A stretch of 64,000 nucleotides of DNA from Saccharothrix sp. NRRL B-16314 (GTDB taxonomy: Bacteria; Actinomycetota; Actinomycetes; Mycobacteriales; Pseudonocardiaceae), in NCBI RefSeq assembly GCF_000716595.1, contig NZ_JNXC01000017.1, positions 1 through 64,000 on the forward strand. Direction: 5' to 3'. The notes beneath the pieces are model-generated. The model was not told the DNA's origin. It worked only from the letters and a program-made list of their open reading frames with translations, and ran no database searches. Below are positions 359-13,667 of the stretch, in pieces (positions within the stretch are counted from its first letter, which is position 1; each line of letters starts with the position of its first letter). Position numbers and translations under genes: made by a program.

Positions 359-1144
359 TCAGGGGTTGCCCGACAACCCCTCGAACACCGCACGCGCCTC
401 ACCGCCGGGCCGGATGCCCAGGTCCGCGTCCAGCACCCGCCACAAACGGCGGTAGACGTTGATCGCGCCTACGCGGTCGCCCAGGTGGGCCAGCGCGCGC
501 ATCAGCAGCACCTGCAACGACTCGCGGGTGGGATGGGCTGATGCGTGCGGCGCCAGGAGGTCGGCTGCCTCCTCCCACGCGCCCAGCGCCACCTGCGCGG
601 TCGCCAGGTGTTCCACGGCGGCGATCCGGCGTTCCCGCCACAACGCGACGACCGCCGTGGCCGGAGCCGACGGCACCAACCCGACCAGGCCGTCCACCGG
701 CCAACGCGCCAGCGCGCCCGTCAACGACGTGACGGCGCCGAGCGGATCTCCCTGCCGCAGGGCGGCCACGCCACGGCGCAGCAACCCGCCCGCGCTCAGC
801 ACGTCCACGGCCTCGGCGGGCACGTCCAGCCGGTAGCCGTGGCCGACGTGGGCCAGCAGGCGCGACAGCCCGGCGTTCGCCGTGTCCAGGCAGCGACGCA
901 GCCGTGACGCGTACAGCTGGAGGTTCTTGAGCGCGCTGCGCGGTGGCTCACGCTCCCACAGGTAGTCCACCAGGCGTTCGGTGGATACGGCCGCCCCGGC
1001 GTCCAGCGCCAGCGCGACCAGCAGCGTCCGCGACTTCACCCCGCCGGGCACCACGTCGACCGCCCTCGGCCCGCTCACGGCGGGCCCCCCTAACAGCCGG
1101 ATGTCGACTTCCAGCCGCACGTGCGACGTCGAACGGATCGACAC
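359..1144 (-). CDS. SARP-family transcriptional regulator (OmpR-type DNA-binding plus BTAD domain)
   Basis: About 261 residues, the normal size of a small Streptomyces antibiotic regulatory protein. The N-terminal ~95 residues form a winged-helix domain (LLGGPAV near the start, then LVDYLWEREPPRSALKNLQ and YASRLRR). The rest is the bacterial transcriptional activator domain with TPR-like helices (VLLMRALAHLGDRVGAINVY and YRRLWRVLDADLGIRPG). The GTG at 1144 is preferred because GGGGAGA lies 6 bases upstream; a GTG at 1159 is also possible. It is transcribed away from the thiopeptide genes, and a heptamer direct repeat lies in the shared intergenic region. It is therefore the likely pathway-specific activator (inference from position and family). 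Confidence 0.88.
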   Translation of the reverse strand: MSIRSTSHVRLEVDIRLLGGPAVSGPRAVDVVPGGVKSRTLLVALALDAGAAVSTERLVDYLWEREPPRSALKNLQLYASRLRRCLDTANAGLSRLLAHVGHGYRLDVPAEAVDVLSAGGLLRRGVAALRQGDPLGAVTSLTGALARWPVDGLVGLVPSAPATAVVALWRERRIAAVEHLATAQVALGAWEEAADLLAPHASAHPTRESLQVLLMRALAHLGDRVGAINVYRRLWRVLDADLGIRPGGEARAVFEGLSGNP

Positions 1145-1477
1145 CCCGGATCTCCCCACGTCGAACCCGATCAGTCACCGCACACGGTAAGTCGTGGTCC
1201 GGGGTGCGCGACGCGGGGCCGAATGCCGCGAACCACCGGACGGCGCAACGCATACCGGACGTATACCGGCAGGTGGGAGCGTGCGGCTCGACGCCCGCAC
1301 CGTGGGGAGCGACCGCATGACCCCGCAGCATCCCGATTCGGAGAACCGCAACGCCGCGCGCGGTGCGGTCCGGTGGGCGGTGCGGGGCCGGGGACGATCC
1401 CGGGCGGGCTGATCAGCACCACCCGAACGCGGCGCGCCGACCGGTCCCGCCGCACCTCTCCAGAAGGGACGTGACCG
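1145..1477. other. Divergent promoter region between SARP regulator and thiopeptide precursor
   Basis: This 333-base gap holds no convincing gene. It contains a 7-bp direct repeat with 11-bp periodicity (1252-1269), the expected arrangement for SARP binding. The precursor's ribosome binding site GAAGGGA is at 1463-1469. The region must hold promoters for both directions; no unambiguous -10/-35 pair could be picked out by eye. Confidence 0.6.
1252..1269. promoter_or_regulatory. Putative SARP operator: two ATACCGG heptamers 11 bp apart
   Basis: ATACCGG occurs at 1252-1258 and again at 1263-1269, with a 4-bp spacer and start-to-start distance of exactly 11 bp. SARP activators bind direct heptamer repeats spaced by 11 or 22 bp (one helical turn or two). 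The element lies between the divergent SARP gene and the precursor gene, and could serve either or both. The precursor ATG is over 200 bp away, so a long leader would be needed if it drives that gene. Confidence 0.5.
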
Positions 1478-1639
1478 ATGGACCTGACCTTCGACGACTC
1501 GGAGCTCGACCTCGGCGACCTGGCCGTCACCGCGATGCGCGACGCCGTCGCGCTGCCGGAGACCGGCGCCTCGGCGCAGGCGTGCTCGTGCAGCAGCACC
1601 TCGTGCTGCTGCTGCCAGGTGCCGCAGCTGCCGGCGTAG
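1478..1639 (+). CDS. Thiopeptide precursor peptide (lactazole LazA-like) with a CCCC-containing core
   Basis: A 53-residue peptide. The acidic leader (residues 1-31) ends in VALPETGA and contains ELDLGDLAVTAMRDAV. It closely resembles, from memory, the lactazole leader with its LDLSELTVTSLRDTVALPENGA pattern. The predicted core starts at Ser32: SAQACSC, then SSTS, then four Cys (43-46), then QVPQLPA. Ser, Thr and Cys make up 12 of 22 core residues, the substrates for azoles and dehydroamino acids. A GAAGGGA site lies 8 bases before the ATG. It is followed by a strong stem-loop and then the modification enzymes. Ser32 and Ser42 (the latter followed by Cys43) are the likely pyridine-forming residues, which would give a 29-membered macrocycle. 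The core boundary and ring are inferences. Confidence 0.9.
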   Translation: MDLTFDDSELDLGDLAVTAMRDAVALPETGASAQACSCSSTSCCCCQVPQLPA

Positions 1640-1646
1640 TTCCGAT

Positions 1647-1674
1647 CCGGGGGCGTCCGCGCGGACGCCCCCGG
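1647..1674 (+). terminator. Perfect 28-nt palindrome between precursor and enzymes (attenuator/terminator)
   Basis: Begins CCGGGGGCGTCCGC and continues with its exact reverse complement, 8 bases after the precursor stop codon. It could form a ~12-bp GC stem with a tight loop. There is no U-tract. In RiPP operons such a hairpin after the precursor typically limits read-through and stabilises the upstream mRNA, so that much more substrate than enzyme is made. That role is inferred here from position. Confidence 0.7.
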
Positions 1675-1698
1675 GCCCACACCCACGGGGAGCACCGG

Positions 1699-4113
1699 AT
1701 GGCCAGTGACCGCACCACGACCGAACTCGCGCCGTACGCGCTGGTCCGGGTGGCCGCGCTGCCGCACCGCCGACCGGTCCCCTCGGACTTCCGGGCCGGC
1801 CTGGCGGCGGTGGTCGCCGCCGAGGCCCGGATCGCCGCGCTGGCACCGGATCTCGCCGACGCCCTGCACGACAGCGCCGGCGGCCACTCCACCTCGTTCC
1901 ACCACAAGGTCGTGCTGCCCCTGCGCCGCGACGTGCACAACGGGCGCAGCCCGCGCCTGGCGGCATTGGGCACCCTGCCGGAACGGGTGCCGCTGCTGGG
2001 GGAGTGGTTGGCGGCGCACGAAGAGCTGGCACGGGCAGCGGACGCGGCGCTGGCGGCGTGGCCGGACGACCTGGCAGCGGCTCGCCGGTGGCTCGCGGAG
2101 GTGTGCGCGACCGACGAGGTGCGCCGCGCGAGCGTGCTGACCGGCGCCGACCTGCTGCACGGCCTTGACCGCACCGCACGGGGACGGGGTGAGCCCGACC
2201 GCAAGGCGCGCAAGGCCGAGCCGACGGTGCTGCGGTACGCGTTGCGGGCGACTTCCAAGACCAGCCCCCTGTCCTGGTACACGCACGTCGGCTGGGGCGA
2301 GTGGGGCGACGGGCCGTGGCCCGCGGCGGAACCGGTGTCGCACCCGGCGGTGCACCGCCTGCTCGTGACGAGGGTGGTCGACGCCCTCGGTCTGCGGATG
2401 CCGCACCGGCTCGCACCGGGCCTGAGGGAGCGCGAGGGTCGCCTGCTGTTCCGCCGGGACGTCCCGGTCGACGGCGTCGGTCGTGCCGCAGTGGTCCGCG
2501 AGGAAGAGGTGAACGTCGCCGCGACGCGCCCCTTGCTGTTCGTGATCGAGGTCGTGCGCGGGGCAGGGCCGGACGGGCTGCCGCTGGACCGGATCGCCGC
2601 GGCTTTGGCGGCGAAGCTGACCACGCCGGACGCGGACCGCACGGCGCGTGGTTTCGTGGCGAAGACGCTCGACCTGGGGCTGTTGGTCCCGGTGTCCCCG
2701 ATCCACCCCCAGGACCCGGACGCGGTGGGCTCGCTGGCCTCCTGGCTGGCGCCCGCCGACGGCGACACCGCCCGCAGGCTGACCGCGCTCGCCACGACCA
2801 CCGCCGCGTTCGCCACCGCCGACCCGCCGACCCGCGCGGCCGTGCTCGCGGAGCTCTCCGAGGGTTGGCGCGAGCTGGGCGAGCGGGTCGGCGCGGACCT
2901 GACCGGCGTGACCCCGGTGGTCGAGGACGTGGTGCTGCCCGAGCCGGTCCCCGTGCCACCCGGCGCCGCGCCCGCGTTGACCCGCCTCACCCCGTTGCTG
3001 GTGGCGTTCGACCAGCACGTGCTGCTGCGCCGGCTGATCCGGGCCAGGTTCGTGGAGCGGTTCGGCGAGGGTGGTGTGGCGACGCCCGCCGACTGCTCCG
3101 AGGCGCTGTCGCAGGCGTGGCAGGAGTCGATGAACGTCGACGACCTGGACGACCCGGACGTCCGTGCCGTCATCGGGCTGCGCGACAAGCTGGCCGGGCA
3201 GGTCAACGACGGCGTGGTGACCGACGACGTGCTGGCGTCCGCCGCCGATCTCCTGCCCGCGTGGGCGACCCGCCGCACCGGTTCGTACGGCTTCTTTGCC
3301 CAGCCGACCCACGACGGCCGGCTCGTGGTCAACCGCGTCTACGCCGGGTTCGGCAAGTTCACCAGCCGCTTCCTCGACCTGCTGCCCGGCGCGCGCGACG
3401 CCGTGACCGACCAGGTCCGCCGCCACACCACCAACCCCGTGCAGTTCCGCCCGGTGCAGGGCTTCAACGCCAACCTGCACCCGTTGCTCGGCGCGCGGGA
3501 GGTCGGCGAGGACGCCCGGTGGGCCGACCTGGTCGCCGACGAGCTGGACGTGCGGCACGACCCGGTGACCGACGAGGTCCGGGTGACGCACCGCGGTGTG
3601 CCGCTCGACGTGCTGTACCTGGGTTTCCTGATCCCGCTGGCGCTGCCGGACCGGCAGGTCCCGCTGTACTCGGACCTCGCCTGCGGGTGGGTGGACCTCG
3701 ACCGGCTGCGCACCGCCACGACGAACAGCGGGGTGACCGCCCGTGGCCGCTTGACGTACGGGGACGTCGTGCTGGCACGCCGTTCCTGGGACTTCGCCGT
3801 GCCGCCGCCGGTGGGCGCGGAGGAGCGGGCGGCGCTCGACGTGGCACGGTTGCGCGCCCGGCACGGCCTGCCGGAGCACGTCTTCGTCGGGCCGGACCGG
3901 GGGCCGGTGTCGGCCGACGCCTACCAACGCGCGCTCACGGCGGGCAAGCCGCAGTACGCCGACCTGGGAGACCCGTTGCACCTGCGCTGCCTGCCACGCC
4001 TGCTGGCCCGGTTCCCCGACGGCGTGCGGTTGACCGAGGCGCTGCCCGTGCCGGGTGCCGGGGACGGCCGGGTGGTCGAACTGATCGCGGAAACGTACTG
4101 GAGGGCCTTGTGA
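1699..4113 (+). CDS. Lanthipeptide-type dehydratase, glutamylation subunit (LazB-like)
   Basis: 804 residues with the Lant_dehydr_N architecture of split LanB/TbtB-type dehydratases: an N-terminal YALVRVAALP segment, SKTSPLSWYTHVGWG near residue 195, and FGKFTSRFLDLL near residue 550. These enzymes transfer glutamate from Glu-tRNA to Ser/Thr of the precursor. The elimination step needs a separate partner, here the fused protein at 9503-11035. The ATG is preceded by a GGGGAGC sequence. The gene follows the precursor and its stem-loop, and its 3' end overlaps the next gene's GTG by 4 bases. Length and context match LazB. Confidence 0.9.
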   Translation: MASDRTTTELAPYALVRVAALPHRRPVPSDFRAGLAAVVAAEARIAALAPDLADALHDSAGGHSTSFHHKVVLPLRRDVHNGRSPRLAALGTLPERVPLLGEWLAAHEELARAADAALAAWPDDLAAARRWLAEVCATDEVRRASVLTGADLLHGLDRTARGRGEPDRKARKAEPTVLRYALRATSKTSPLSWYTHVGWGEWGDGPWPAAEPVSHPAVHRLLVTRVVDALGLRMPHRLAPGLREREGRLLFRRDVPVDGVGRAAVVREEEVNVAATRPLLFVIEVVRGAGPDGLPLDRIAAALAAKLTTPDADRTARGFVAKTLDLGLLVPVSPIHPQDPDAVGSLASWLAPADGDTARRLTALATTTAAFATADPPTRAAVLAELSEGWRELGERVGADLTGVTPVVEDVVLPEPVPVPPGAAPALTRLTPLLVAFDQHVLLRRLIRARFVERFGEGGVATPADCSEALSQAWQESMNVDDLDDPDVRAVIGLRDKLAGQVNDGVVTDDVLASAADLLPAWATRRTGSYGFFAQPTHDGRLVVNRVYAGFGKFTSRFLDLLPGARDAVTDQVRRHTTNPVQFRPVQGFNANLHPLLGAREVGEDARWADLVADELDVRHDPVTDEVRVTHRGVPLDVLYLGFLIPLALPDRQVPLYSDLACGWVDLDRLRTATTNSGVTARGRLTYGDVVLARRSWDFAVPPPVGAEERAALDVARLRARHGLPEHVFVGPDRGPVSADAYQRALTAGKPQYADLGDPLHLRCLPRLLARFPDGVRLTEALPVPGAGDGRVVELIAETYWRAL

Positions 4114-5183
4114 CCGACGTCGTCTGCTACTACCACGACCCGGTGAAGGCGCCGTTGCTCCGCGATGCCGTGCTGCCGGCGCTCGCGGAGGCGGAGCGAG
4201 CCGGCGCTGTCGGGCACGTGGAGCGGCACTGGTTGCACGGGCCGCACGTGCGGGTCCGGCTGGACGGACCGGCCGAAGCCGATCTCGTCGCCTCACGCCT
4301 GCGCGCACACCTGGAGCAACATCCGTCCACTGTGGACTTGGACCGTGATGTGCTGCTCGCGCAGGCGAAGCAGAACGGGATCGCGGAGCTGGTGCCGCCG
4401 CCCTACGAGCCGCTCCACCCGGACAACACCGTAGTCGTCGAGCCGACGGACCTCACGGCTCTGCGGCAGCTGCTGGCGTCGGACGCGCTGGTCGAGCTGC
4501 GCAGCCGGTGCTTGAGGCTCGGCGTGCCCGCGATCACCGACGCCGTGGCGGTGGACGGCACCAGCCAGTCACGCGTGCGGCTCGCGATGGTCGCGATGAC
4601 GGCTCACGCGAGCCGGTTCCCGGCCGGCCTGGTCAACGGCTACCACTCGTTCCTGTCGCACCTCGAAGGTTTCCTGCTGCACAGCGACCCGGACGGTGTG
4701 CTGCGCGCCCGGTTCGACGGTGTGTGGGAGCGCAACGCCGACCAGGTGGTCGAGACCGTCCGCGGTGTCACCGAGGGCACGATCGCCACGCCGTGGGTGA
4801 CCTGGACGGACGGCACCCGTGCGGTGATCGGTGAGGCGTTCGACCGCGGTGAACTGCCCACCGAGTACTCGACGCACCTGGGCGAACGCGCACTGGAAAT
4901 GGGGGAGGAGGAGGCGATCCGGCGCTGGCACCGCGACTCCACCGACCGGATCAGCGACTACCACGTCAAGTTGCGGGAGGTCGACTTCGACCACCCGGAC
5001 TACCAGCGGCCCGTCACCGTGTACCGCTTCGGCACGAACATGCTCTACCAGTTGCTGGCCGTGTGCGACGTGACGCCGGTGGAGCGCTACCTCGCCGCGA
5101 GCCTGGTCGTGCGGGCGGTGCAGCGGATCACCGGCATCGGGTGGTCCGAGCACGTAGCGCAGATGGCGAAGGTGGTCCGATGA
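4110..5183 (+). CDS. Thiopeptide pyridine synthase ([4+2] cyclase, LazC/TbtD-like)
   Basis: 357 residues of the 'thiopeptide-type bacteriocin biosynthesis domain' family. The N-terminus has CYYHDP and the family hallmark HWLHGPHVRVRLDGP; the C-terminus has GTNMLYQLLAVC and ERYLAASLVVRAVQ. Stand-alone members catalyse the formal aza-[4+2] cycloaddition between two dehydroalanines, eject the leader peptide and leave the central pyridine. The GTG start overlaps the previous stop (GTGA), with GGAGGG upstream, and its own stop overlaps the next ATG. This is a coupled operon. Confidence 0.9.
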   Translation: MTDVVCYYHDPVKAPLLRDAVLPALAEAERAGAVGHVERHWLHGPHVRVRLDGPAEADLVASRLRAHLEQHPSTVDLDRDVLLAQAKQNGIAELVPPPYEPLHPDNTVVVEPTDLTALRQLLASDALVELRSRCLRLGVPAITDAVAVDGTSQSRVRLAMVAMTAHASRFPAGLVNGYHSFLSHLEGFLLHSDPDGVLRARFDGVWERNADQVVETVRGVTEGTIATPWVTWTDGTRAVIGEAFDRGELPTEYSTHLGERALEMGEEEAIRRWHRDSTDRISDYHVKLREVDFDHPDYQRPVTVYRFGTNMLYQLLAVCDVTPVERYLAASLVVRAVQRITGIGWSEHVAQMAKVVR

Positions 5184-6751
5184 GCGCGGTGCTGCGGCTG
5201 CGGCCGATCGTGCACGCGACGCCCACGGCGACCGGGCTGCACGTGCGGGGCTGGCGTTCCAGCTTCACGCTCGACGGCGGCAAGGGGTTGTGGACGATCT
5301 GGGAGCGCCTGGCCGGTCCGTTGGCCGACGGCGTGCCACCGGAGCAGCTGGCCGTGCCGGAGAACGCGTCACCGGCCGTGGCGCGTGCGCTGGAACTGCT
5401 CATCGGCCAGCTCCACGAGCACGACATGCTGGTGGAGGTTCCCGCTGAGTGGATCAACGCCGAGTGGATCAACGCCGAGTGGGGTGGGGACGCGCCGCCT
5501 GCCGACATCGCGAGCTGGCTGGAGTCCGTTGCGCCGTCACCGCTTGAGGCGTGGCGGCGGCTCCGGGCGGCGACGGTCGCGGTCACCGGTGAGGGCGCGT
5601 TGGCCGCTCACGCGCACCGCGCCCTTGTCGCCGCAGGCCTGGACGCCACGCTCCGGCCCGGTGTCGGCCTGCTCCTGGTCTCCGGTGAGCACGCCGTCGC
5701 CGCCGGTTGCGCCGCCGATGTCGGCTTCGCGGTCGCGCCGGGTCCGGTCGCGGACGTGGTGGCCGACGCGGTGGCGGTGGCGGAACGGTTGGCAGGCGCG
5801 CCGGGGACGCCGCCGGAGGTGTTGGCGGCACTGGTCGGATCGGCTGCCGCGCACCGGCTCGTGTGCGCGGTGGCCGGGCTGCCCGATCCGTCCACCGAAG
5901 TGGTGGACATGTGGAGCGACGTGCCGCCGACCGGGCCGCCGCACCAGGCCCTCCTGGTGGCCCGGCTCGACCCGCTGCACGCCGAGTACCACCCGTGGCT
6001 GTCGGCCGTCCGGCCGCAGGAGCCGAACGGCACGGTTCCGGAGGTGCTGGGCGATCGGGAGTTGGGCCCGGTGCCGACGCCGCTGCCCGGTGACCTGCCG
6101 CAGTTGCCGGTCAAGCTGGCCGCGTCCGGTGACGCGATCGGCTTCGGCACCACCGAGCACGCCGCCCGGCTCGACGCCCTGCTCCGCGCGGCACGTGTGC
6201 TCGCGCCGGACGGCGTGGTGCTCGGCGCGGACCGGGTGCACGCCCTCGGCCTGGCCTTGCGCACGGCCGTGCGGCACCTCGACGGCACAGCGGTCGCCGA
6301 AGACGAGTGGGCCGCCGACCCGACCGCGCGGCGTTGGTGGAAGGCCGTGACGCTCCGGTTCGCCCTGCCCGCCGTGGTCGAGGTGACCAGGCTCGGGCCG
6401 CGCGTGGTGCGTGCGGTGGTGCGTGCGGACGGCGAGGAGCTGTCCTGGGCGGTCGAAGCGGAACCGGCGGACGCCGTCGCGTTCGCCGCCATGGCCGCGG
6501 CCGGTCGGGCGCAGGCGGGGGTGACCGAAGCGGTCGTGCTCTGCGGTGCCGCGCCGTTCGCCGAACCCGATGGCGCCGCGGCGCCGTGGACGAACCGGGA
6601 CTGGCACTGGCCGTACGGGCTGCGCGACGGCGAAGAGGCGTTCCAGGACGACCTGCGGGCGCTCGCGGCGGACGTCAAGCCGGTGCACCTCGGTCCGGTG
6701 CTGGAGGCCGCGGGCCTGGTCGCGTTCGCGGTCCGGGAGGACGGTCGGTGA
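5180..6751 (+). CDS. Ocin-ThiF-like partner of the YcaO cyclodehydratase (LazD-like)
   Basis: 523 residues. The N-terminal ~85 residues (LRLRPIVHATPTATGLHVRG and a following winged-helix-like stretch) fit a RiPP recognition element that binds the leader. The remainder is a degenerate E1/ThiF-like scaffold that activates the YcaO partner encoded next. It contains a 15-bp tandem duplication giving EWINAEWINAEW near residues 90-101, an apparent recent expansion in the linker. The gene is coupled on both sides by ATGA/GTGA overlaps. LazD is the best-matching family member. Leader binding is inferred from the family. Confidence 0.82.
   Translation: MSAVLRLRPIVHATPTATGLHVRGWRSSFTLDGGKGLWTIWERLAGPLADGVPPEQLAVPENASPAVARALELLIGQLHEHDMLVEVPAEWINAEWINAEWGGDAPPADIASWLESVAPSPLEAWRRLRAATVAVTGEGALAAHAHRALVAAGLDATLRPGVGLLLVSGEHAVAAGCAADVGFAVAPGPVADVVADAVAVAERLAGAPGTPPEVLAALVGSAAAHRLVCAVAGLPDPSTEVVDMWSDVPPTGPPHQALLVARLDPLHAEYHPWLSAVRPQEPNGTVPEVLGDRELGPVPTPLPGDLPQLPVKLAASGDAIGFGTTEHAARLDALLRAARVLAPDGVVLGADRVHALGLALRTAVRHLDGTAVAEDEWAADPTARRWWKAVTLRFALPAVVEVTRLGPRVVRAVVRADGEELSWAVEAEPADAVAFAAMAAAGRAQAGVTEAVVLCGAAPFAEPDGAAAPWTNRDWHWPYGLRDGEEAFQDDLRALAADVKPVHLGPVLEAAGLVAFAVREDGR
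5447..5482 (+). repeat. 15-bp tandem duplication inside the LazD-like gene
   Basis: GAGTGGATCAACGCC is repeated exactly at 5447-5461 and 5462-5476, followed by a third GAGTGG. It keeps the reading frame and adds five residues (EWINA) between the leader-binding part and the E1-like part. The lack of divergence between copies suggests a recent slippage event. Confidence 0.85.
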
Positions 6752-8415
6752 CCGTGCGCGTGGTGGAGCTGGCCGACTACGCGATCGGTGACCTGGACGG
6801 GATCGGCGCGGACGGTCCCGTGCTGCCGGTGCGGTTCGACGGCGCCCTGGTCCTGATCGGGCCGGTGTCGGACGGGGTGTGCGTGAGCTGCGCCGAGGAC
6901 GCTCGGCTGGCCACGCTCGGTTCGTCCGTGCCGCGCGGCGATCGGCGGATGCGGTTGGGCGGCTTGGCGTCCCCGGCGTTGCGGCCGTTGGTCACGGCGC
7001 TCGTCGATCGGGTGCTGGCCGATCCGGAGGCGCACCGCGACAAGGTGCTGGCGCTGCGCACCGACTTGGCGACGGTGGGGGAGCACCGGGTGCGGCCCCG
7101 GTCCGGTGGCTGCCCGACGTGCGGTCCGCTGCCCGGTGACTCGCCGGCGACGGTGGTCCGCGAGCCCGTCCCGGTGGTGCCCGGCACGCTGCGCGGACCG
7201 AACCCGCTCACCGAGGGCGACGCCCTGCACCGCGAGCTGTTCGACCTCCGGCACGGCCCGGTCGGCGGCATGCACCGCATCGGTGACCTGACCGTGGCGG
7301 CGGTGAGCGCCGAGCTGGGCGGTGGGCAGGCCGGGTTCGGCCGCACCGCCGACTACGCCGAGGCCGAACGGGTCGCGCTGTACGAAGCCGTCGAACGGCA
7401 CGCGGGCATGCGGCCCCGGCGCGTCACCACGGTCGTGGAGGCGTCGTACGCCGAGCTGGGCGATCGCGCGCTGGACCCGACGCGGCTCGGCCTGCCCGAC
7501 CACGAGTCGCCGCACGTCGTGCCGTATGACCCCGGCGTGACGACCAGGTGGGTGCACGGCTGGTCGTACACCCGCGGCCGGCCGGTCTTGGTGCCCGAGC
7601 ACGTGGCGTACTGGGGGTACGGCGAGAGGCGGTTCGTGGACGAGACGTCCAACGGGTGCGGCACCGGCAACAGCCTCACCGAAGCGGTGTTGTACGGGCT
7701 GTTCGAGGTCGCCGAACGGGACGCGTTCCTGAAGGCCTGGTACGAGCGGACGCCGTTGCGGAGCCTGCGCGTGCGCGACGACGTCACCGCGCACATCGCG
7801 GACCGGTTGGACCAGCTCGGCTACCGGTTGGAGCTCTACGACGCCACCAACGACCTGGGCGTGCCGTCGGTGCTGTCGCTCGCGCGGTCACCGCGGCAGC
7901 CTCACGCGTTCTTCGCCGCCGGCGCCGGGCTCGACCCGGACGCGGCGATGCGGTCGGCGGCGGCCGAGGTGGTGATGGACGTGGAGGCCGGCGCCAAGCG
8001 GTACCGCGTCGAGCCCGGCGACTACGACGTGGACCGGCTGCGGCGGCTGGTGGACGACCCCAGGCTGATCCGGAGCATGGAGGACCACGTGAACGTCAAC
8101 GGCCTGGCGGAGGCCGTCGAGCGGTACGACTTCCTGGTGCCCGGACCCGAGGTGGACCTGCCGGTGCCGGACGTGCCGCGGGACGACCTGGACGCGTTGC
8201 TGGAGCACTACGTGCGCAAGTGGGCCGGGTTGGGGCTGGAGGTGATCGCGGTCGACCAGAGCGATCCGGTGGTGCGCGACCGGCTGGGCCTGCACTCGGC
8301 GAAGGTGATCGTGCCCGGCACGGTGCCGATGACGTTCGGCGAGCTGAACCGGCGCACGCACGGCCTGCCGCGGCTGCGCCCCGCCGGTCCTCCGCTGCCC
8401 CACCCGTTCCCGTGA
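6748..8415 (+). CDS. YcaO-type azoline cyclodehydratase (LazE-like)
   Basis: 555 residues. The N-terminal part holds two CxxC pairs (CVSC and CPTC), likely a structural zinc site. The YcaO domain follows, with the ATP-site region QAGFGRTADYAEAERVALYE, SNGCGTGNSLTEAVLYGLFE and VAERDAFLKAWYERTP. The C-terminus is proline-rich and ends PHPFP, as in TOMM cyclodehydratases where the C-terminal proline motif takes part in catalysis. It uses ATP to cyclise Cys (and possibly Ser/Thr) of the precursor into azolines, acting with the protein encoded just upstream. The GTG start overlaps the upstream stop. Confidence 0.92.
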   Translation: MTVRVVELADYAIGDLDGIGADGPVLPVRFDGALVLIGPVSDGVCVSCAEDARLATLGSSVPRGDRRMRLGGLASPALRPLVTALVDRVLADPEAHRDKVLALRTDLATVGEHRVRPRSGGCPTCGPLPGDSPATVVREPVPVVPGTLRGPNPLTEGDALHRELFDLRHGPVGGMHRIGDLTVAAVSAELGGGQAGFGRTADYAEAERVALYEAVERHAGMRPRRVTTVVEASYAELGDRALDPTRLGLPDHESPHVVPYDPGVTTRWVHGWSYTRGRPVLVPEHVAYWGYGERRFVDETSNGCGTGNSLTEAVLYGLFEVAERDAFLKAWYERTPLRSLRVRDDVTAHIADRLDQLGYRLELYDATNDLGVPSVLSLARSPRQPHAFFAAGAGLDPDAAMRSAAAEVVMDVEAGAKRYRVEPGDYDVDRLRRLVDDPRLIRSMEDHVNVNGLAEAVERYDFLVPGPEVDLPVPDVPRDDLDALLEHYVRKWAGLGLEVIAVDQSDPVVRDRLGLHSAKVIVPGTVPMTFGELNRRTHGLPRLRPAGPPLPHPFP

Positions 8416-9506
8416 ACGCCGAGGCCTTGCTCGCCGCCTACACCCACGGGCCGGGGCGGGTGGTCGAGCCGGGGACGTCGCCGCGCACCGCCGCCGCGAC
8501 GGGGCCACGCGTGCCGCTGACGGCGTTGTCGGGACGCTTCGGAGCGGCGTTGGCGCGTCTGCTGACGGAGGTGGCGACACCGCTGCGGTGGGAGCCGTGG
8601 AACCAGTACAACGACCACCGGGCGTACCCGTCGGCACGGGCCGCGTCCACCGTTGACCTGGTGGTGGAGGGGCGGTGGCTGCTCGATCCGGTGCGGCGGG
8701 CGCTGGTCGGTGACGGGACGCCGGTGGTCGACGGGCCGGTGCGGGTCGAGCTGGTCCGCCGGCGCGACCGGCTCTCGCCCGGTTACCGCGAGTTCGGCGA
8801 CGTGCTCACGGAGTTGGAGGTGGGGCACGTCGCGGCGGCGTTGGTCGAGCACGCGGCACGGCTCGGCTTGGGAGCGCGGGTGTCGGGGCTGACCGTCACC
8901 GTGACGTTCGACGGTGTCACCGATCCGGCACCTGTTCCGCTTCGCAGTTCGGGGGTGGGTCCGCGCGGCGTCGCTGCTGATCCGCGGCCACTGCCGGCCG
9001 GCGTGCTGCACGCGGTGGTCGAGGCCATCGGTCACCCGCCGTCCGGGTCGCCCGTGCGCGACGACCTGCGGCACCGGTTGGCCGTGCGGAACGTCGAGGG
9101 CGTCGTCGACGGCTGGTACGCCGTGGACGGCGGCCTGCGGCTGGTGTCGGCGGGACCGGCGGTGGCGGCGTTGCAGCCGGTGTTCGGGCACCCGCCAGGG
9201 ACGATCCACGTCGCCTCGATGAACCTCGCGCTGGTGACGACCGGTGACCCTGCCGCCGCCGTGGCGTCGGACGGTCCGGACGGCTACCGCGCCCTGCTGC
9301 GTGCGGCCGGTGCGACCGCGCAGCACGTGTGCACGGCAGCCGCGGGCTCCGGGGCGTTCTGCCGGCCGGCGCGCAGCACCGACGACGGCCCGCTGGAGGC
9401 CATGGCCGGCGCGCCCGCGTCGCACGCGCTGCTCTACCTGCTGCTCGTCGGCCGTCCGCGCGGCACGGGCTTCACCTACGACCTCACCCCACTGGAGACG
9501 CCATGA
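8412..9506 (+). CDS. Additional SagB-like (nitroreductase-fold) protein of the thiopeptide cluster
   Basis: 364 residues with a degenerate SagB/nitroreductase pattern: YREFGDVLTELEVGHVAAAL, a MNLALVTTGD strand, and AGATAQHVCTAAAGSGAFCR followed by HALLYLLLVGRPRG at the C-terminus. The N-terminal half has NQYNDHRAYPSARAASTVDL, which resembles the substrate and FMN region of TOMM dehydrogenases. A complete dehydrogenase is fused at the end of the next gene, so this is a second, divergent copy. The minimal lactazole set has only one. It could be a second oxidase (for example for oxazolines or the long thiazole run) or a non-catalytic partner. It is coupled by overlap on both sides, so it belongs to the pathway. 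Confidence 0.7.
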   Translation: MNAEALLAAYTHGPGRVVEPGTSPRTAAATGPRVPLTALSGRFGAALARLLTEVATPLRWEPWNQYNDHRAYPSARAASTVDLVVEGRWLLDPVRRALVGDGTPVVDGPVRVELVRRRDRLSPGYREFGDVLTELEVGHVAAALVEHAARLGLGARVSGLTVTVTFDGVTDPAPVPLRSSGVGPRGVAADPRPLPAGVLHAVVEAIGHPPSGSPVRDDLRHRLAVRNVEGVVDGWYAVDGGLRLVSAGPAVAALQPVFGHPPGTIHVASMNLALVTTGDPAAAVASDGPDGYRALLRAAGATAQHVCTAAAGSGAFCRPARSTDDGPLEAMAGAPASHALLYLLLVGRPRGTGFTYDLTPLETP

Positions 9507-11035
9507 CGTGGACCAGCCTGCACGTGCGGCTGTGGTGGGCGGTCGAGGACGTGGACGCGTTCATCGCCGACGTCCTCGCGCCGGAGTTGGACGGGCACCG
9601 CGCGGCGGGACGCGTCACCGACTGGTTCTACGTGCGGTACTGGGAGGCCGGCCCGCACCTGCGCGTCCGGGCGCGCGGCGCGACCGTGGACCTCGCGGAG
9701 CGGTTGCGCTCCCTCGTCGCGGGGGCCGATCACCCGCTGACCGCGTCGTCACCCGACTGGCTGCCGCACGGTGACGTCCGGGAGACGCCGTACGTGCCGG
9801 AGGTGGAGCGGTACGGCGGGCCGGAGTCGCTGCCCGTTGCCGAGGACGTGTTCTGCCGCAGCACCGAGGTGGCGGTGGCCGTGCTGCGGTCCGCGGGGTC
9901 GAAGTTCACCGCGGGCGTGGAGTTGGTGATGGCCACGGCGGTCGCGCTGGAGCTGGATCGGGTGGAGGCGGCGTCGTGGCTGCGTTCCCTGGCGACGGGG
10001 TGGCGGCAGGCGCGCGAGCCCGTCGCACCGCCGGGGCTCGGCTCCCACGTCGCCGCGCGGACGCTGCACGAGGCACGGGCGACCCGGCTCGCCGCACGGT
10101 GGGACCGGCTCGAATCGGGCGCGACGGGTGTGGTGGCCTACTGGGCGGACCGGGTGCGGGCGGTGGACCTGCCGCGTTACGCCTGGGCGTCGCAGCTGCA
10201 CATGGTGTTCAACCGCTTGGGTCTCGGCCCCGAGGAGGAGCGCACCGCCTGCCGGCTGGTGGCGATGACGGCCGAAGCACCGGACGGGCCGACGCCGTTC
10301 CACGAGGACGGTGCGGCAGCGCCCGACCGGCGTTACCTGGCGGCCAGCAGGTTCCACTCGGGCGTGCCGGACCAGGGTCCGCTCGAGGTGGGGGTCACGC
10401 CGTCGACGCTGCCGTGGTGGCAGGACGTGCCGCTGCCGGAGGCCGCGCCCGTGCCCGGGGCGCTGGCCGACGCGTTGCAGACCCGGCACACCGCACGGGG
10501 CGCGGAGCTGTCGGGCTCGCTCCACGCCGGGCAGCTGGCGACTCTGCTGTGGACGGCGCAGGGTGCGCTTGCGGACGGGCGCCGGCCGTACCCGAGCGCC
10601 GGCGCCCGGCACAGCGCGCGGCTGCGGGTGCTGGCGTTGCGGGTGACCGGCCTGGAGCCGGGGGTGTACGAAGTGGACGAGGTGCGGCGGACGCTGGTCC
10701 ACGTCGCGTCCGCACCACCGGTGGACGACGTGCGCGCGTCCTCCATGTGGTTCGGCGAGGGGGAGGGGCGGGTGGACCCGGCCACGACGCCCGCCGTGCT
10801 GGCGCTCTACACGCGGGTTGGCGACCTGCGTGCGGCGTACGGCCTGCGGGCGCTGCGGTTGGCGTTCACGGAGGCCGGGCACCTGGCGCAGAACCTGGCG
10901 CTGGTCGCCGCGTCGTCGGGCTTGGCGCTGGGCATGATCGGGGGCTTCTACGACGACATGGCGCACGACGTGCTGTGCCTGGACGGCGTGGACGACACGC
11001 TGGTCTACCTGATGCCGCTGGCGTCCGTCCGCTGA
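9503..11035 (+). CDS. Fused glutamate-elimination domain and azoline dehydrogenase (LazF-like)
   Basis: 510 residues in two parts. Residues 1-~275 are a SpaB_C/thiopeptide-type elimination domain (SLHVRLWWAVEDVDAFIADV, WFYVRYWEAGPHLRVR, QLHMVFNRLGLGPEEE), which removes glutamate to give dehydroamino acids after the LazB-type enzyme has acted. Residues ~320-510 are an FMN-dependent SagB-type dehydrogenase (RRPYPSAGARHSARLRVLAL, GLEPGVYEVD, FTEAGHLAQNLALVAASSGL, GMIGGFYDD), which oxidises azolines to azoles. This bifunctional fusion is diagnostic of lactazole-type clusters. It is the last gene of the operon; no exporter, peptidase or ribosome-protection gene follows on this strand. Confidence 0.92.
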   Translation: MTWTSLHVRLWWAVEDVDAFIADVLAPELDGHRAAGRVTDWFYVRYWEAGPHLRVRARGATVDLAERLRSLVAGADHPLTASSPDWLPHGDVRETPYVPEVERYGGPESLPVAEDVFCRSTEVAVAVLRSAGSKFTAGVELVMATAVALELDRVEAASWLRSLATGWRQAREPVAPPGLGSHVAARTLHEARATRLAARWDRLESGATGVVAYWADRVRAVDLPRYAWASQLHMVFNRLGLGPEEERTACRLVAMTAEAPDGPTPFHEDGAAAPDRRYLAASRFHSGVPDQGPLEVGVTPSTLPWWQDVPLPEAAPVPGALADALQTRHTARGAELSGSLHAGQLATLLWTAQGALADGRRPYPSAGARHSARLRVLALRVTGLEPGVYEVDEVRRTLVHVASAPPVDDVRASSMWFGEGEGRVDPATTPAVLALYTRVGDLRAAYGLRALRLAFTEAGHLAQNLALVAASSGLALGMIGGFYDDMAHDVLCLDGVDDTLVYLMPLASVR

Positions 11036-11051
11036 CCGGGCGGAGGGGTCC

Positions 11052-11330
11052 TCAGGCGTCGCCGCGCATCGAGCGACGGATCTCCTCGAGCTTGTCGAGC
11101 CCCGCCTGCCGACGTGCCTCGAACTGGTCCTCGACCGCCTTGGCCTCCGGGGTGGCGTCCGCGAGCTCCTCGGCGCCGATGCTCGTGGCCACGCGGCTCT
11201 CGATGCGGTCGCGGACGTGCTCGAAGGTCGGCACGCCGTCCGCGCTGTAGTCACCGGCCGGCACCACGGGCTGCGCCGCCTGCTCCTCGACGATCTCGGC
11301 GTCGATCACCGGTTCCCGGTCCTCGCTCAT
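11052..11330 (-). CDS. Small acidic hypothetical protein
   Basis: 92 residues, strongly acidic N-terminus (MSEDREPVIDAEIVEEQ) and a helical, charged C-terminus (GLDKLEEIRRSMRG). There is no Cys, no membrane segment and no signal peptide. GGAG lies 7 bases before the ATG, so translation is credible. It lies 43 bases downstream of the exporter gene on the same strand and could be co-transcribed, or be an independent housekeeping gene. No family was recognised. Confidence 0.6.
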   Translation of the reverse strand: MSEDREPVIDAEIVEEQAAQPVVPAGDYSADGVPTFEHVRDRIESRVATSIGAEELADATPEAKAVEDQFEARRQAGLDKLEEIRRSMRGDA

Positions 11331-11373
11331 CGCCCAACTCCCGTTCGTCGTGCCGACAGCCGAGGCTACCCGT

Positions 11374-12600
11374 TCACACCGGTTGGGCGATCCGGTGACG
11401 GCGGTCCCGCACGTGGGCGATCACCTTCACCATGAGCGCGGACACCGCGACGCAGTAGACGCCGAGCACGACGACCTGGTGCGGGTAGCCGACGCCGCCG
11501 TCGATCAGCAGGCCGCTCACCCCGGGACCGGCGGCCGAGGCGAAGACCAGGATCGCCACGACCACCGAGCGGATGGCGCCGAGGTGGTCCACGCCGTAGA
11601 TCTCCGGCCACGTCGCACCGAACAGGCTGAGCGACACGCCGTTCGTCACGCCGTAGAGGGCCATGAACGCGAACAGGCCCCACTGGTCGTCCGTGAGTCC
11701 CAGCACCAGCAGCCCGCCGCCGAGCGGCAGCAGGAACAGCGGCACCAGGCGCAGCGCGGTCAGCCGGTCGACCAGGTGGCCGCCGATCACGTTGAACACG
11801 ACCGTCGACACCGCGTACACCGTGAACGCCGTCGCCGTGACCTGGAGCGGCCACCCGCGCAGGTCCGCAAGGTGGACCTGGTTGAAGAACACCGTGTTGC
11901 CGATCAGCGCGGGCGCGCCCATGGCCAGGCAGACGAGGTAGAAGTACGGATCGCGCAACGCCTGCCGCCTGGTCCAACTCGGCGCGGACGCGCGAGCGTC
12001 GTGAACGGTGTCCGCCGCCGGTTCGCGTTCGCGGCGGAACAGCGCGGCCACCACGAAGGCGGCGACGAGGAGCACTACGGCGCCGAGCCACCACACCTGG
12101 CGCCAGCCGACCGCCGCCGCCACGAGCACCACCAGCAGCGGGAGCAGCGCCTCACCGGCGTTCAGGCCGAGCGTCGACACCGACATCGCCCGACCGCGCT
12201 CGCCGGTGAACCAGCGGCCCACCACGGTGAACGCGATGTGGGTCATCATGCCCTGCCCGAAGAAGCGCAGCAGGGCCACGGCGGCGAACAGCACCAGCAC
12301 GTGCCCGGACGCCGCCATCGCGAACGCGCCCAGCGCGAGCATCGGCACGGCCACCAGGACGACGTGCCGCGCCGGGTACCGGTCGACCGCCGGACCGGTC
12401 CTGGCCAGCACGAGGGCGCTCACCAGCGTCGCCGCCATGTACAGGCCGCCGAACTCGCCGTGCGACAGGCCGTGCTCCGCGCGGATGTCGTTGCCGAACA
12501 GGGAGATGAAGAACGTCTGCCCGAAGCACGAGAGCAGGAAGAGCAGGAAACCCCCGGACAGCCAGCGCTTGTCGCGGCGGAGGAAGTCGACGGTGCTCAT
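11374..12600 (-). CDS. MFS transporter
   Basis: 408 residues with about 12 hydrophobic segments and the MFS loop motif between helices 2 and 3 (ARTGPAVDRYPARHVVLV). It resembles small-molecule/oxalate-formate-type or drug-efflux MFS proteins. The ATG overlaps the stop of the upstream monooxygenase gene by 4 bases, so it is the last member of the ectoine-synthase-like operon. Export of that operon's product is the simplest role (inference). It is not linked to the thiopeptide genes, which end on the other strand. Confidence 0.85.
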   Translation of the reverse strand: MSTVDFLRRDKRWLSGGFLLFLLSCFGQTFFISLFGNDIRAEHGLSHGEFGGLYMAATLVSALVLARTGPAVDRYPARHVVLVAVPMLALGAFAMAASGHVLVLFAAVALLRFFGQGMMTHIAFTVVGRWFTGERGRAMSVSTLGLNAGEALLPLLVVLVAAAVGWRQVWWLGAVVLLVAAFVVAALFRREREPAADTVHDARASAPSWTRRQALRDPYFYLVCLAMGAPALIGNTVFFNQVHLADLRGWPLQVTATAFTVYAVSTVVFNVIGGHLVDRLTALRLVPLFLLPLGGGLLVLGLTDDQWGLFAFMALYGVTNGVSLSLFGATWPEIYGVDHLGAIRSVVVAILVFASAAGPGVSGLLIDGGVGYPHQVVVLGVYCVAVSALMVKVIAHVRDRRHRIAQPV

Positions 12601-13667
12601 CGGCCGGTCTCCAGGGTCAGCGCGGCGTGCGCGCGGGCGTGCGTCACCCAGTCCACGTCGCGGTGCGCGGCCATCATCTGCAGGTCGCGCCAGTGCCGCG
12701 CGATCGGGTGGTCGTCGAAGTGGGCGGCGGTTCCGGACAGCTCGACCAGCCGGTGCACCGCCCGCACGCACAGCCGGGCGAGGTAGGCCCGGTCGCGGCC
12801 GACGGTCGCCGCTTCCACCGCCGTGAGCGGGCGGCGTTCGAGCCCGGCCGAGTGCAGGGTGTCGCAGATCGAGTCGTACAGGTGCCGCGCGCACGCCAGC
12901 TCGGCCGCGCTTTCCGCCACACCGTCCGAGGGTGTCCGGACTGCCTCGAACGCGCCTTCAGCACACCCCAGCAGCGGTCCGATGACCGTGCTGGTGGCGT
13001 ACGGCAGGAACGGCACCTGCCCCAAGTAGTCCGTGGGGGCCGTGTCCGGCGACCAGCGTGCGGAGAAGCACTCGGCGAGCACGTCCACGCGGGAGCGGGG
13101 CACGAGCACGTCGTCGACCGCGAACGTCTTGGACCCGGTCGCGGCCATGCCGGTGACGTGCCACCCGTCCTCGATCCGCACCTGCTCGACGGGCAGCGGC
13201 ACGAGCAGCCGGTCGGTCGCCGCGCAGCCGTTCACCACCACCCACGACGCGTGGTCGACGGCGGACGAGAACCGCCACCGCCCCGACACGACGACGCCGC
13301 CCGGCACCGCGGTCAGCCGCCCGCCGGACGCCGTCGCGAACAGCGGGCTCCTGGCGGTGAACATCAGGTCTGCGGCGGAGAGCCGCCCGGCGAGCGCCGC
13401 ATGACCGCCGACGACGCCCAGCACCCAGCCGGTCGACGGGCACGCCCTGGCGGCGACCCTGGCCGCCTCCGCGAGCGTCGGCCAGCCGTGCCCCGGACCT
13501 CCGCGCGCGGTCGGGGCCGCCAGCCGCAGAAGGCCGGCGTCGGCCAGTTCCGCCACGGTGGCGTCCGGCAGGGTGCGGGCGCGCTCGGCTGCCGCGGCGC
13601 GTTCCCGCCACCGCTCGGCCAACGCCTCGACCCGTGCCGGCACCTCGGGGACGACGTGCCTCGTCAC
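12597..13667 (-). CDS. Acyl-CoA dehydrogenase-fold flavin monooxygenase (group D type)
   Basis: 356 residues with acyl-CoA-dehydrogenase fold features: WRERAAAAERARTLPDATVA at the N-terminus, then ARACPSTGWVLGVVGGHAAL, GRWRFSSAVDHASWVV and GMAATGSKTFAVDDVLVP. The GxWxFSS pattern with a following His is typical of flavin-dependent hydroxylases such as HpaB/HsaA and nitrososynthase relatives rather than of true acyl-CoA dehydrogenases. Such enzymes need a flavin reductase in trans; none is encoded here. The GTG start overlaps the upstream ligase stop (GTGA). It probably hydroxylates the operon's intermediate (inference). Confidence 0.78.
   Translation of the reverse strand: MTRHVVPEVPARVEALAERWRERAAAAERARTLPDATVAELADAGLLRLAAPTARGGPGHGWPTLAEAARVAARACPSTGWVLGVVGGHAALAGRLSAADLMFTARSPLFATASGGRLTAVPGGVVVSGRWRFSSAVDHASWVVVNGCAATDRLLVPLPVEQVRIEDGWHVTGMAATGSKTFAVDDVLVPRSRVDVLAECFSARWSPDTAPTDYLGQVPFLPYATSTVIGPLLGCAEGAFEAVRTPSDGVAESAAELACARHLYDSICDTLHSAGLERRPLTAVEAATVGRDRAYLARLCVRAVHRLVELSGTAAHFDDHPIARHWRDLQMMAAHRDVDWVTHARAHAALTLETGR

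Follow-up and report, generated by a model that had tools for sequence, protein, structure and literature searches.

A lactazole-family thiopeptide locus of Saccharothrix with an additional nitroreductase-fold gene and a four-cysteine run in its core

In 2020, lactazole-like clusters made up approximately half of all predicted thiopeptide clusters (251 of 508), among which laz alone had been characterised, according to a report of that year (PMC7210931). Low-similarity members of the group also occur in Lentzea (PMC9120177). In the in vitro lactazole system, azoles are formed by LazDE together with LazF, dehydroalanine (Dha) by LazB together with LazF, and the ring by LazC; lactazole carries thiazoles at positions 5, 7, and 13, an oxazole at position 11, and Dha12 in the ring closure, with a ring of 32 atoms (PMC7210931). 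Here, a related locus was analyzed, located at positions 1478-11035 of a 64,000-nucleotide stretch of DNA from the soil actinomycete Saccharothrix sp. NRRL B-16314 (the window). It shares with the lactazole A cluster (lazA-F) and with L010, a near-lactazole locus (L numbers denote the loci compared), a leader resembling DLxxLTVTxxRDTVALPENGA, the gene order A-B-C-D-E-F, and the LazF fusion (PMC7210931). It differs from lactazole in possessing an extra gene, designated NitroX, and consequently six enzymes instead of the minimal five with one dehydrogenase. On balance, it is probable that the locus makes a lactazole-family thiopeptide whose contiguous thiazolines are oxidised by NitroX, giving a tail of four thiazoles. 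The passages of the literature examined describe no lactazole-like cluster with two dehydrogenases and no rule connecting such an enzyme with runs of Cys.

The locus comprises seven plus-strand genes, all open at the coordinates listed here, in a tightly coupled operon in which each of the last five genes, from the pyridine synthase onward, overlaps the preceding gene by 4 bases. The preliminary description of this DNA had counted seven genes correctly, although it described six functions and left 8412-9506, NitroX, undescribed.

362-1159, minus strand, divergent from the operon: SARP-type regulator (BTAD), probable pathway activator; PF03704, 98.5 bits
1478-1639, plus strand: precursor peptide of 53 amino acids; PF19409 (45 bits, cut-off 23.5) and NF033400 (59.2 bits, cut-off 30), leader aligning with lactazole-type leaders
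1699-4113, plus strand: LanB N-terminal part, predicted Glu-tRNA-dependent Ser/Thr glutamylation (LazB-like); PF04738, 78 bits; 41% to the L010 equivalent
4110-5183, plus strand: pyridine synthase, predicted [4+2] cycloaddition (LazC/TbtD/PbtD-like); PbtD and TbtD matches, NF045556 below cut-off; 42% to L010
5180-6751, plus strand: E1-like partner, probable leader binder (LazD-like); assigned from its place in the operon and from 42% to L010 across residues 6-94
6748-8415, plus strand: YcaO cyclodehydratase with an N-terminal cyclo_dehyd_2 region (LazE-like); PF02624, 254 bits; TIGR03604 and TIGR03882 over cut-off
8412-9506, plus strand: NitroX, second nitroreductase-fold dehydrogenase by prediction, not in L010; PF00881, 24.9 bits (cut-off 23.5)
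9503-11035, plus strand: LazF-type fusion, predicted glutamate elimination and SagB-type azoline dehydrogenase; PF14028, 121 bits; PF00881, 41 bits

The thiopeptide gene set that had been proposed (precursor, split LanB dehydratase, YcaO, pyridine synthase, and LazF-type fusion) is borne out by family and Protein Data Bank (PDB) matches. In the PDB search the pyridine synthase matched PbtD (E 7.6e-17) and TbtD (E 1.3e-7). The fusion is one protein, with PF14028 at residues 3-254 and PF00881 at 328-506, which aligns end to end with its L010 counterpart and scores over the cut-off of TIGR03891 and under that of TIGR03605 (66.9 bits, cut-off 78.4). Weak points are the NF045556 score of the pyridine synthase, 150.9 bits under an equivalog cut-off of 325, and the E1-like protein, which found no match in Pfam, NCBIfam, or the PDB; LanB found none in the PDB. 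In the genome itself (8.93 Mb, 273 contigs), PF14028 matches twice, both times in the cluster, and PF19409 once, also in the cluster. Profiles and alignments with L010 likewise support the lactazole-type leader, gene order, and fusion claimed previously. The label "lactazole-type" is apt for these three features, although the locus is not simply of that type, since the second dehydrogenase is missing from L010, to which the window enzymes are only 41-48% identical.

The precursor reads MDLTFDDSELDLGDLAVTAMRDAVALPETGASAQACSCSSTSCCCCQVPQLPA, of which residues 1-31 form the leader and SAQACSCSSTSCCCCQVPQLPA the core. Core residue 2 is Ala, predicted to stay unmodified as in lactazole A and L010, and the cycloaddition site has the Ser-Ser/Thr-Ser-Cys found in those two. 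On the model of lactazole, ring closure would join Ser1 to Ser11 and give a 29-atom ring by the formula 3n-4, with a methyloxazole from Thr10 and contiguous thiazoles from Cys12-15. In comparison with lactazole, the predicted ring has 29 rather than 32 atoms, Thr replaces the oxazole Ser, and CCCC replaces the single tail Cys. The chemical steps proposed for this pathway are all assigned from enzyme families. The E1-like protein would bind the leader, and YcaO would convert Cys5, Cys7, Cys12-15, and probably Thr10 to azolines, which the two flavin dehydrogenases would oxidise. Dha would be formed by LanB together with the elimination domain of the LazF-type protein, at Ser1 and Ser11 and possibly also at Ser6, Ser8, and Ser9. 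The pyridine synthase would link Ser1 and Ser11, release the leader as an amide, and close the 29-atom ring, with four contiguous thiazoles attached directly to the pyridine. With the tail at full length, [M+H]+ is predicted to lie between about 1911.55 and 1985.61, allowing for 6-7 azoles and for 2-5 Ser dehydrations taken ahead of the cyclisation. NitroX would be an active azoline dehydrogenase of a lineage whose longer members may act alone in other thiopeptide-like clusters, and may have been retained since contiguous thiazolines need it, the LazF-type domain being presumably sufficient for isolated azoles. Lactazole A is without antibacterial activity (PMC7210931); therefore, none is to be assumed for the window product.

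The role ascribed to NitroX is associated with the distribution of Cys runs. In a survey of LazF-type loci, the count covered the 49 rows in which YcaO and one or more precursors were detected, the Cys-run values being entered by hand: the window, 19 of L059-L078, L009, L010, L090, L131-L139, L140, and 16 of the 18 loci from the L010 genus. L095 (weak NitroX match, no precursor found) and L071, L141, and L167 (no YcaO gene seen) were excluded, and L170 (no precursor, short contig) is in the tree and not in the count. It can be observed that CC or a longer run is present in all 24 NitroX-positive rows and in one of the 25 NitroX-negative rows, L179 (Fisher p 4e-13, for rows that are related to one another). 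Within the L010 genus, where 20 of 70 genomes encode a LazF-type protein, the loci examined were L010 and 18 others, of which L167 does not extend far enough to reveal the gene, and NitroX was found only in L178, the core of which ends ...SICSCCC. L131-L139 come from one genus, presumably Lentzea, with a LazF-type protein in 9 of 24 genomes; the L132 precursor equals that of a Lentzea xinjiangensis protein. All nine loci are without NitroX, and their precursors read SGAPSSCSCGSSSCSSC or SGGASSCSCGSSSCSSC (SSSCSSC). Precursors of Lentzea alba and Lentzea sp. NPDC051213, with a leader nearly the same as in L131-L139, read CSCGSSSCCCC, and their contigs have the same lengths as those encoding NitroX proteins in these organisms; both Lentzea are likely to bear NitroX. 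Among the best 120 of 442 precursors from the family search, the longest Cys run is four in 37, three in 9, and one in 74.

Several points weigh against this interpretation. The YcaO tree needs just two to three changes in NitroX, and the two independent contrasts that it offers cannot reach significance. L179 has a CC run without NitroX, and L098, a thiomuracin-like locus with the core SCNCFCYICCSCSPSA, contains CC and has a stand-alone dehydrogenase of another sort, with nothing matching NitroX. In micrococcin, one dehydrogenase makes all six thiazoles (PMC10634744). The rule is therefore proposed, in view of L098 and micrococcin, for LazF-type clusters only, among which the association between NitroX and Cys runs is suggestive. 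The small number of changes on the tree, as well as the CC cores of L179 and L098, would also suit a different function, whereby NitroX acts in a redox step of a different kind, with Dha, the tail Gln, or the pyridine among the conceivable substrates, and accompanies Cys runs through shared ancestry only. Such a function is improbable. The Cys run follows NitroX in one or both of the independent contrasts and goes in the opposite direction in neither; moreover, NitroX is retained in L077, L140, and L178, which have no pyridine synthase, arguing against a pyridine-specific step.

Features of the NitroX protein bear on whether it could catalyse thiazoline oxidation. It is predicted to adopt the nitroreductase fold, and its ratio of nonsynonymous to synonymous substitution rates (dN/dS) is 0.16-0.19, within or below the range of the other enzymes. 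Thirty-two of its 56 conserved columns are common to at least four of five longer homologues, from clusters with elimination-only LazF-like proteins; residues shared with them include R59, N67-R70, S74, R76, R178, R318-P319, and R321. Counting against catalysis are the marginal PF00881 score and the second-best structural match, Acg (2ymv), a flavin-sequestering protein not known to have reductase activity. A non-catalytic partner, either an Acg-like pseudo-dimer or a scaffold, might instead help YcaO or the LazF-type dehydrogenase to deal with long Cys runs. We regard this as rather unlikely, since NitroX is present in L090 although the 15 kb read there show no LazF-type protein, and the longer homologues, which have the conserved residues from R59 to R321 in common with NitroX, are the only dehydrogenase found in the thiopeptide-like clusters L091-L094 and L096. 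Oxidation of thiazolines by NitroX remains the favoured role. Origin as a decayed LazF copy was rejected, NitroX being nearer to stand-alone dehydrogenases and under purifying selection. Separately, the precursors seen in L091, L092, and L096 have CCSSSSSSSCC or a comparable string at the end. In L009 (8565-10001, Kibdelosporangium), NitroX has a stop-free insertion of more than 300 bases between its two parts, and L090, which also has a pyridine synthase, encodes three precursors at 1587-2085.

Conservation of the locus was examined across related genomes. A contig scan with the fusion protein recovered nine loci, six from Saccharothrix and one each from Kibdelosporangium, Streptomyces, and Actinokineospora. 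Within the genus of the window, the pyridine synthase has matches in 19 of 25 genomes at E 1e-3, of which those in 15 genomes, in 19 places, are better than 1e-150; a close relative of the cluster is present in 15 of the 25 genomes. Loci L059-L078 (20 in total) comprise 18 of the 19 places, outside the window, together with L077 and L078. In L059, from a sister genome, the precursor is identical and the enzymes are 90-94% identical, and in the other loci identities range from approximately 91% down to approximately 51% where the remaining genes were found. The orthologues L059-L066, L069, L072, and L074 have the same genes, SARP gene, predicted ring length, and SCCCCQ as the window, with minor changes at core positions 2, 3, and 9 and at the tail end. 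The gene order kept across related genomes and the dN/dS of the six enzymes, 0.14-0.36 in comparisons with three relatives, demonstrate that the cluster is real, far beyond chance. No product of the cluster was found in the open-licence literature, and the relative L071 displays, within 13 kb, a precursor and a pyridine synthase alone; both would fit a cluster that is silent or decaying and gives no mature product. The intact coupled genes, the same dN/dS values, and the identical precursor in the sister genome make this very improbable.

The core had been called new, a claim that does not survive the comparison: a unique core is rejected by the identity with L059, and a database precursor 88% identical to that of the window represents 35 member sequences, with thiazolylpeptide-type bacteriocin as one source name. 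The core strings were not found in the open-licence literature (without subscription journals and supplements), and published genome-mining lists may already hold the cluster. Regarding its borders, a SARP orthologue at 64% or more is present in 11 of the 20 loci L059-L078, and the MFS gene at 11377-12894 is matched in one of these 20 loci, whose DNA stops 1-3 kb past the cluster; the unit is thus taken as the SARP gene and the seven genes. With one match there and none in L003-L008 (10 kb flanks), the MFS gene was rejected as a dedicated exporter. At 2-262, the end of a protein cut by the window edge (HHVTFWADGGTTDLDNLVLLCRTHHSLVHH) presumably resembles an HNH endonuclease. The single precursor found in L071 reads SQGSGSCGSSCCCV..., and other clusters of the same genome could supply the functions unmatched there in trans. 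L075 and L141 represent one genome in which the second cluster is split: L075 has the pyridine synthase, E1-like, YcaO, NitroX, and LazF-type genes and a ring-type precursor, and L141 has LanB and a ringless-type precursor near the opposite contig end.

Comparison of the precursors demonstrates that the most constant part of the core is the tail, SCCCC(Q), with predicted ring sizes ranging from 20 to 41 atoms. The last Ser before the Cys run is at positions 8-13 in the relatives (20-35 atoms predicted), at 14 (38 atoms) in two L090 precursors, and at 15 (41 atoms) in the metagenomic P0091. SCCC or SCCCC is kept in NitroX loci, the exceptions being one L070 precursor (STCCC), two of the three L090 precursors, and the ringless type. 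Such drift is plausible because Laz enzymes tolerate rings of 14 to 62 atoms in vitro (PMC7210931); the natural thiopeptide rings listed in a 2014 review have 26, 29, or 35 atoms (PMC3917276). In several of the small predicted rings Gly precedes the second Ser, therefore no azole is possible at that point. L070 (plus-strand coordinates 11003-13077, minus strand) has five precursors and one degenerate copy ahead of a single enzyme set; their ring parts differ and the Cys tail is nearly constant, a natural combinatorial library.

In L077 and L140, the LanB, E1-like, YcaO, NitroX, and LazF-type genes are present and there is no pyridine synthase between LanB and E1. Neither of two pyridine synthase queries matched the L077 genome, and the L140 genome has a single match, which lies in its other cluster. 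The precursors of both loci retain the beginning of the leader and lack ALPETGAS, so that no ALPETGAS-Ser is present; those of L077 end in ASCSCCSRPTQG or ASCSCCSQPTQA, that of L140 in STACSCCSSRPHLEPKTK. L073 and L076 have ringless-type precursors alongside ring-type ones. In L178, whose precursor likewise has no ALPETGAS-Ser, no pyridine synthase was found in cluster or genome by a search that did find that of the L010 genome. Since L077 and L140 form one starred clade and L178 is distant on the tree, the absence arose at least twice, and loss is the simplest reading. To judge from the genes, the products of these three loci would be linear peptides with azoles and Dha, of the goadsporin kind.

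Taken further, these results permit a tentative proposal, less likely than not, of a lactazole-like subfamily of ribosomally synthesised and post-translationally modified peptides (RiPPs). In this subfamily, a dedicated second dehydrogenase would build three to four contiguous thiazoles on the pyridine, and the tail, not the ring, would be the conserved working part, the ring drifting between 20 and 41 atoms; in at least two lineages the missing pyridine synthase, together with a change to precursors that have no ring-forming Ser, would mark the turn from a macrocycle to a linear-peptide pathway. If so, the tail would be a rod-like polythiazole, possibly binding metal or nucleic acid. The findings suggest a testable gene-to-structure rule within LazF-type clusters, connecting NitroX with contiguous thiazoles; NitroX might bring polythiazoles within reach of the in vitro lactazole system, and the loci without the pyridine-forming gene show that such an absence occurs in nature.

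Among other known systems, goadsporin shares YcaO, a flavin dehydrogenase, and Glu-dependent dehydration with the window, and LazF can stand in for GodG in vitro (PMC5303826). Goadsporin is a linear azole/Dha peptide; the window differs in its pyridine synthase at 4110-5183 and its Ser1 core, and a macrocycle is therefore expected, unlike in goadsporin. Thiomuracin and GE2270 (TbtD and PbtD; 29-atom rings) share pyridine synthase homology and the predicted ring size; the window core, by comparison, has no ring Asn and no Cys at position 2, and its elimination domain is fused to a dehydrogenase. The 29-atom binders of elongation factor Tu (EF-Tu) have a conserved ring Asn (PMC3917276), and an EF-Tu binder, as the ring size might suggest, was rejected because the core has no Asn. 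Dehydrazoles, another RiPP class, use LanMbC and an NHLP-type leader, and one dehydrazole cluster has two YcaO/dehydrogenase pairs (PMC10676384); this assignment was also rejected, LanMbC and the NHLP-type leader not being among the families found in the window cluster. As read from its genes, the locus works like the laz pathway with one addition.

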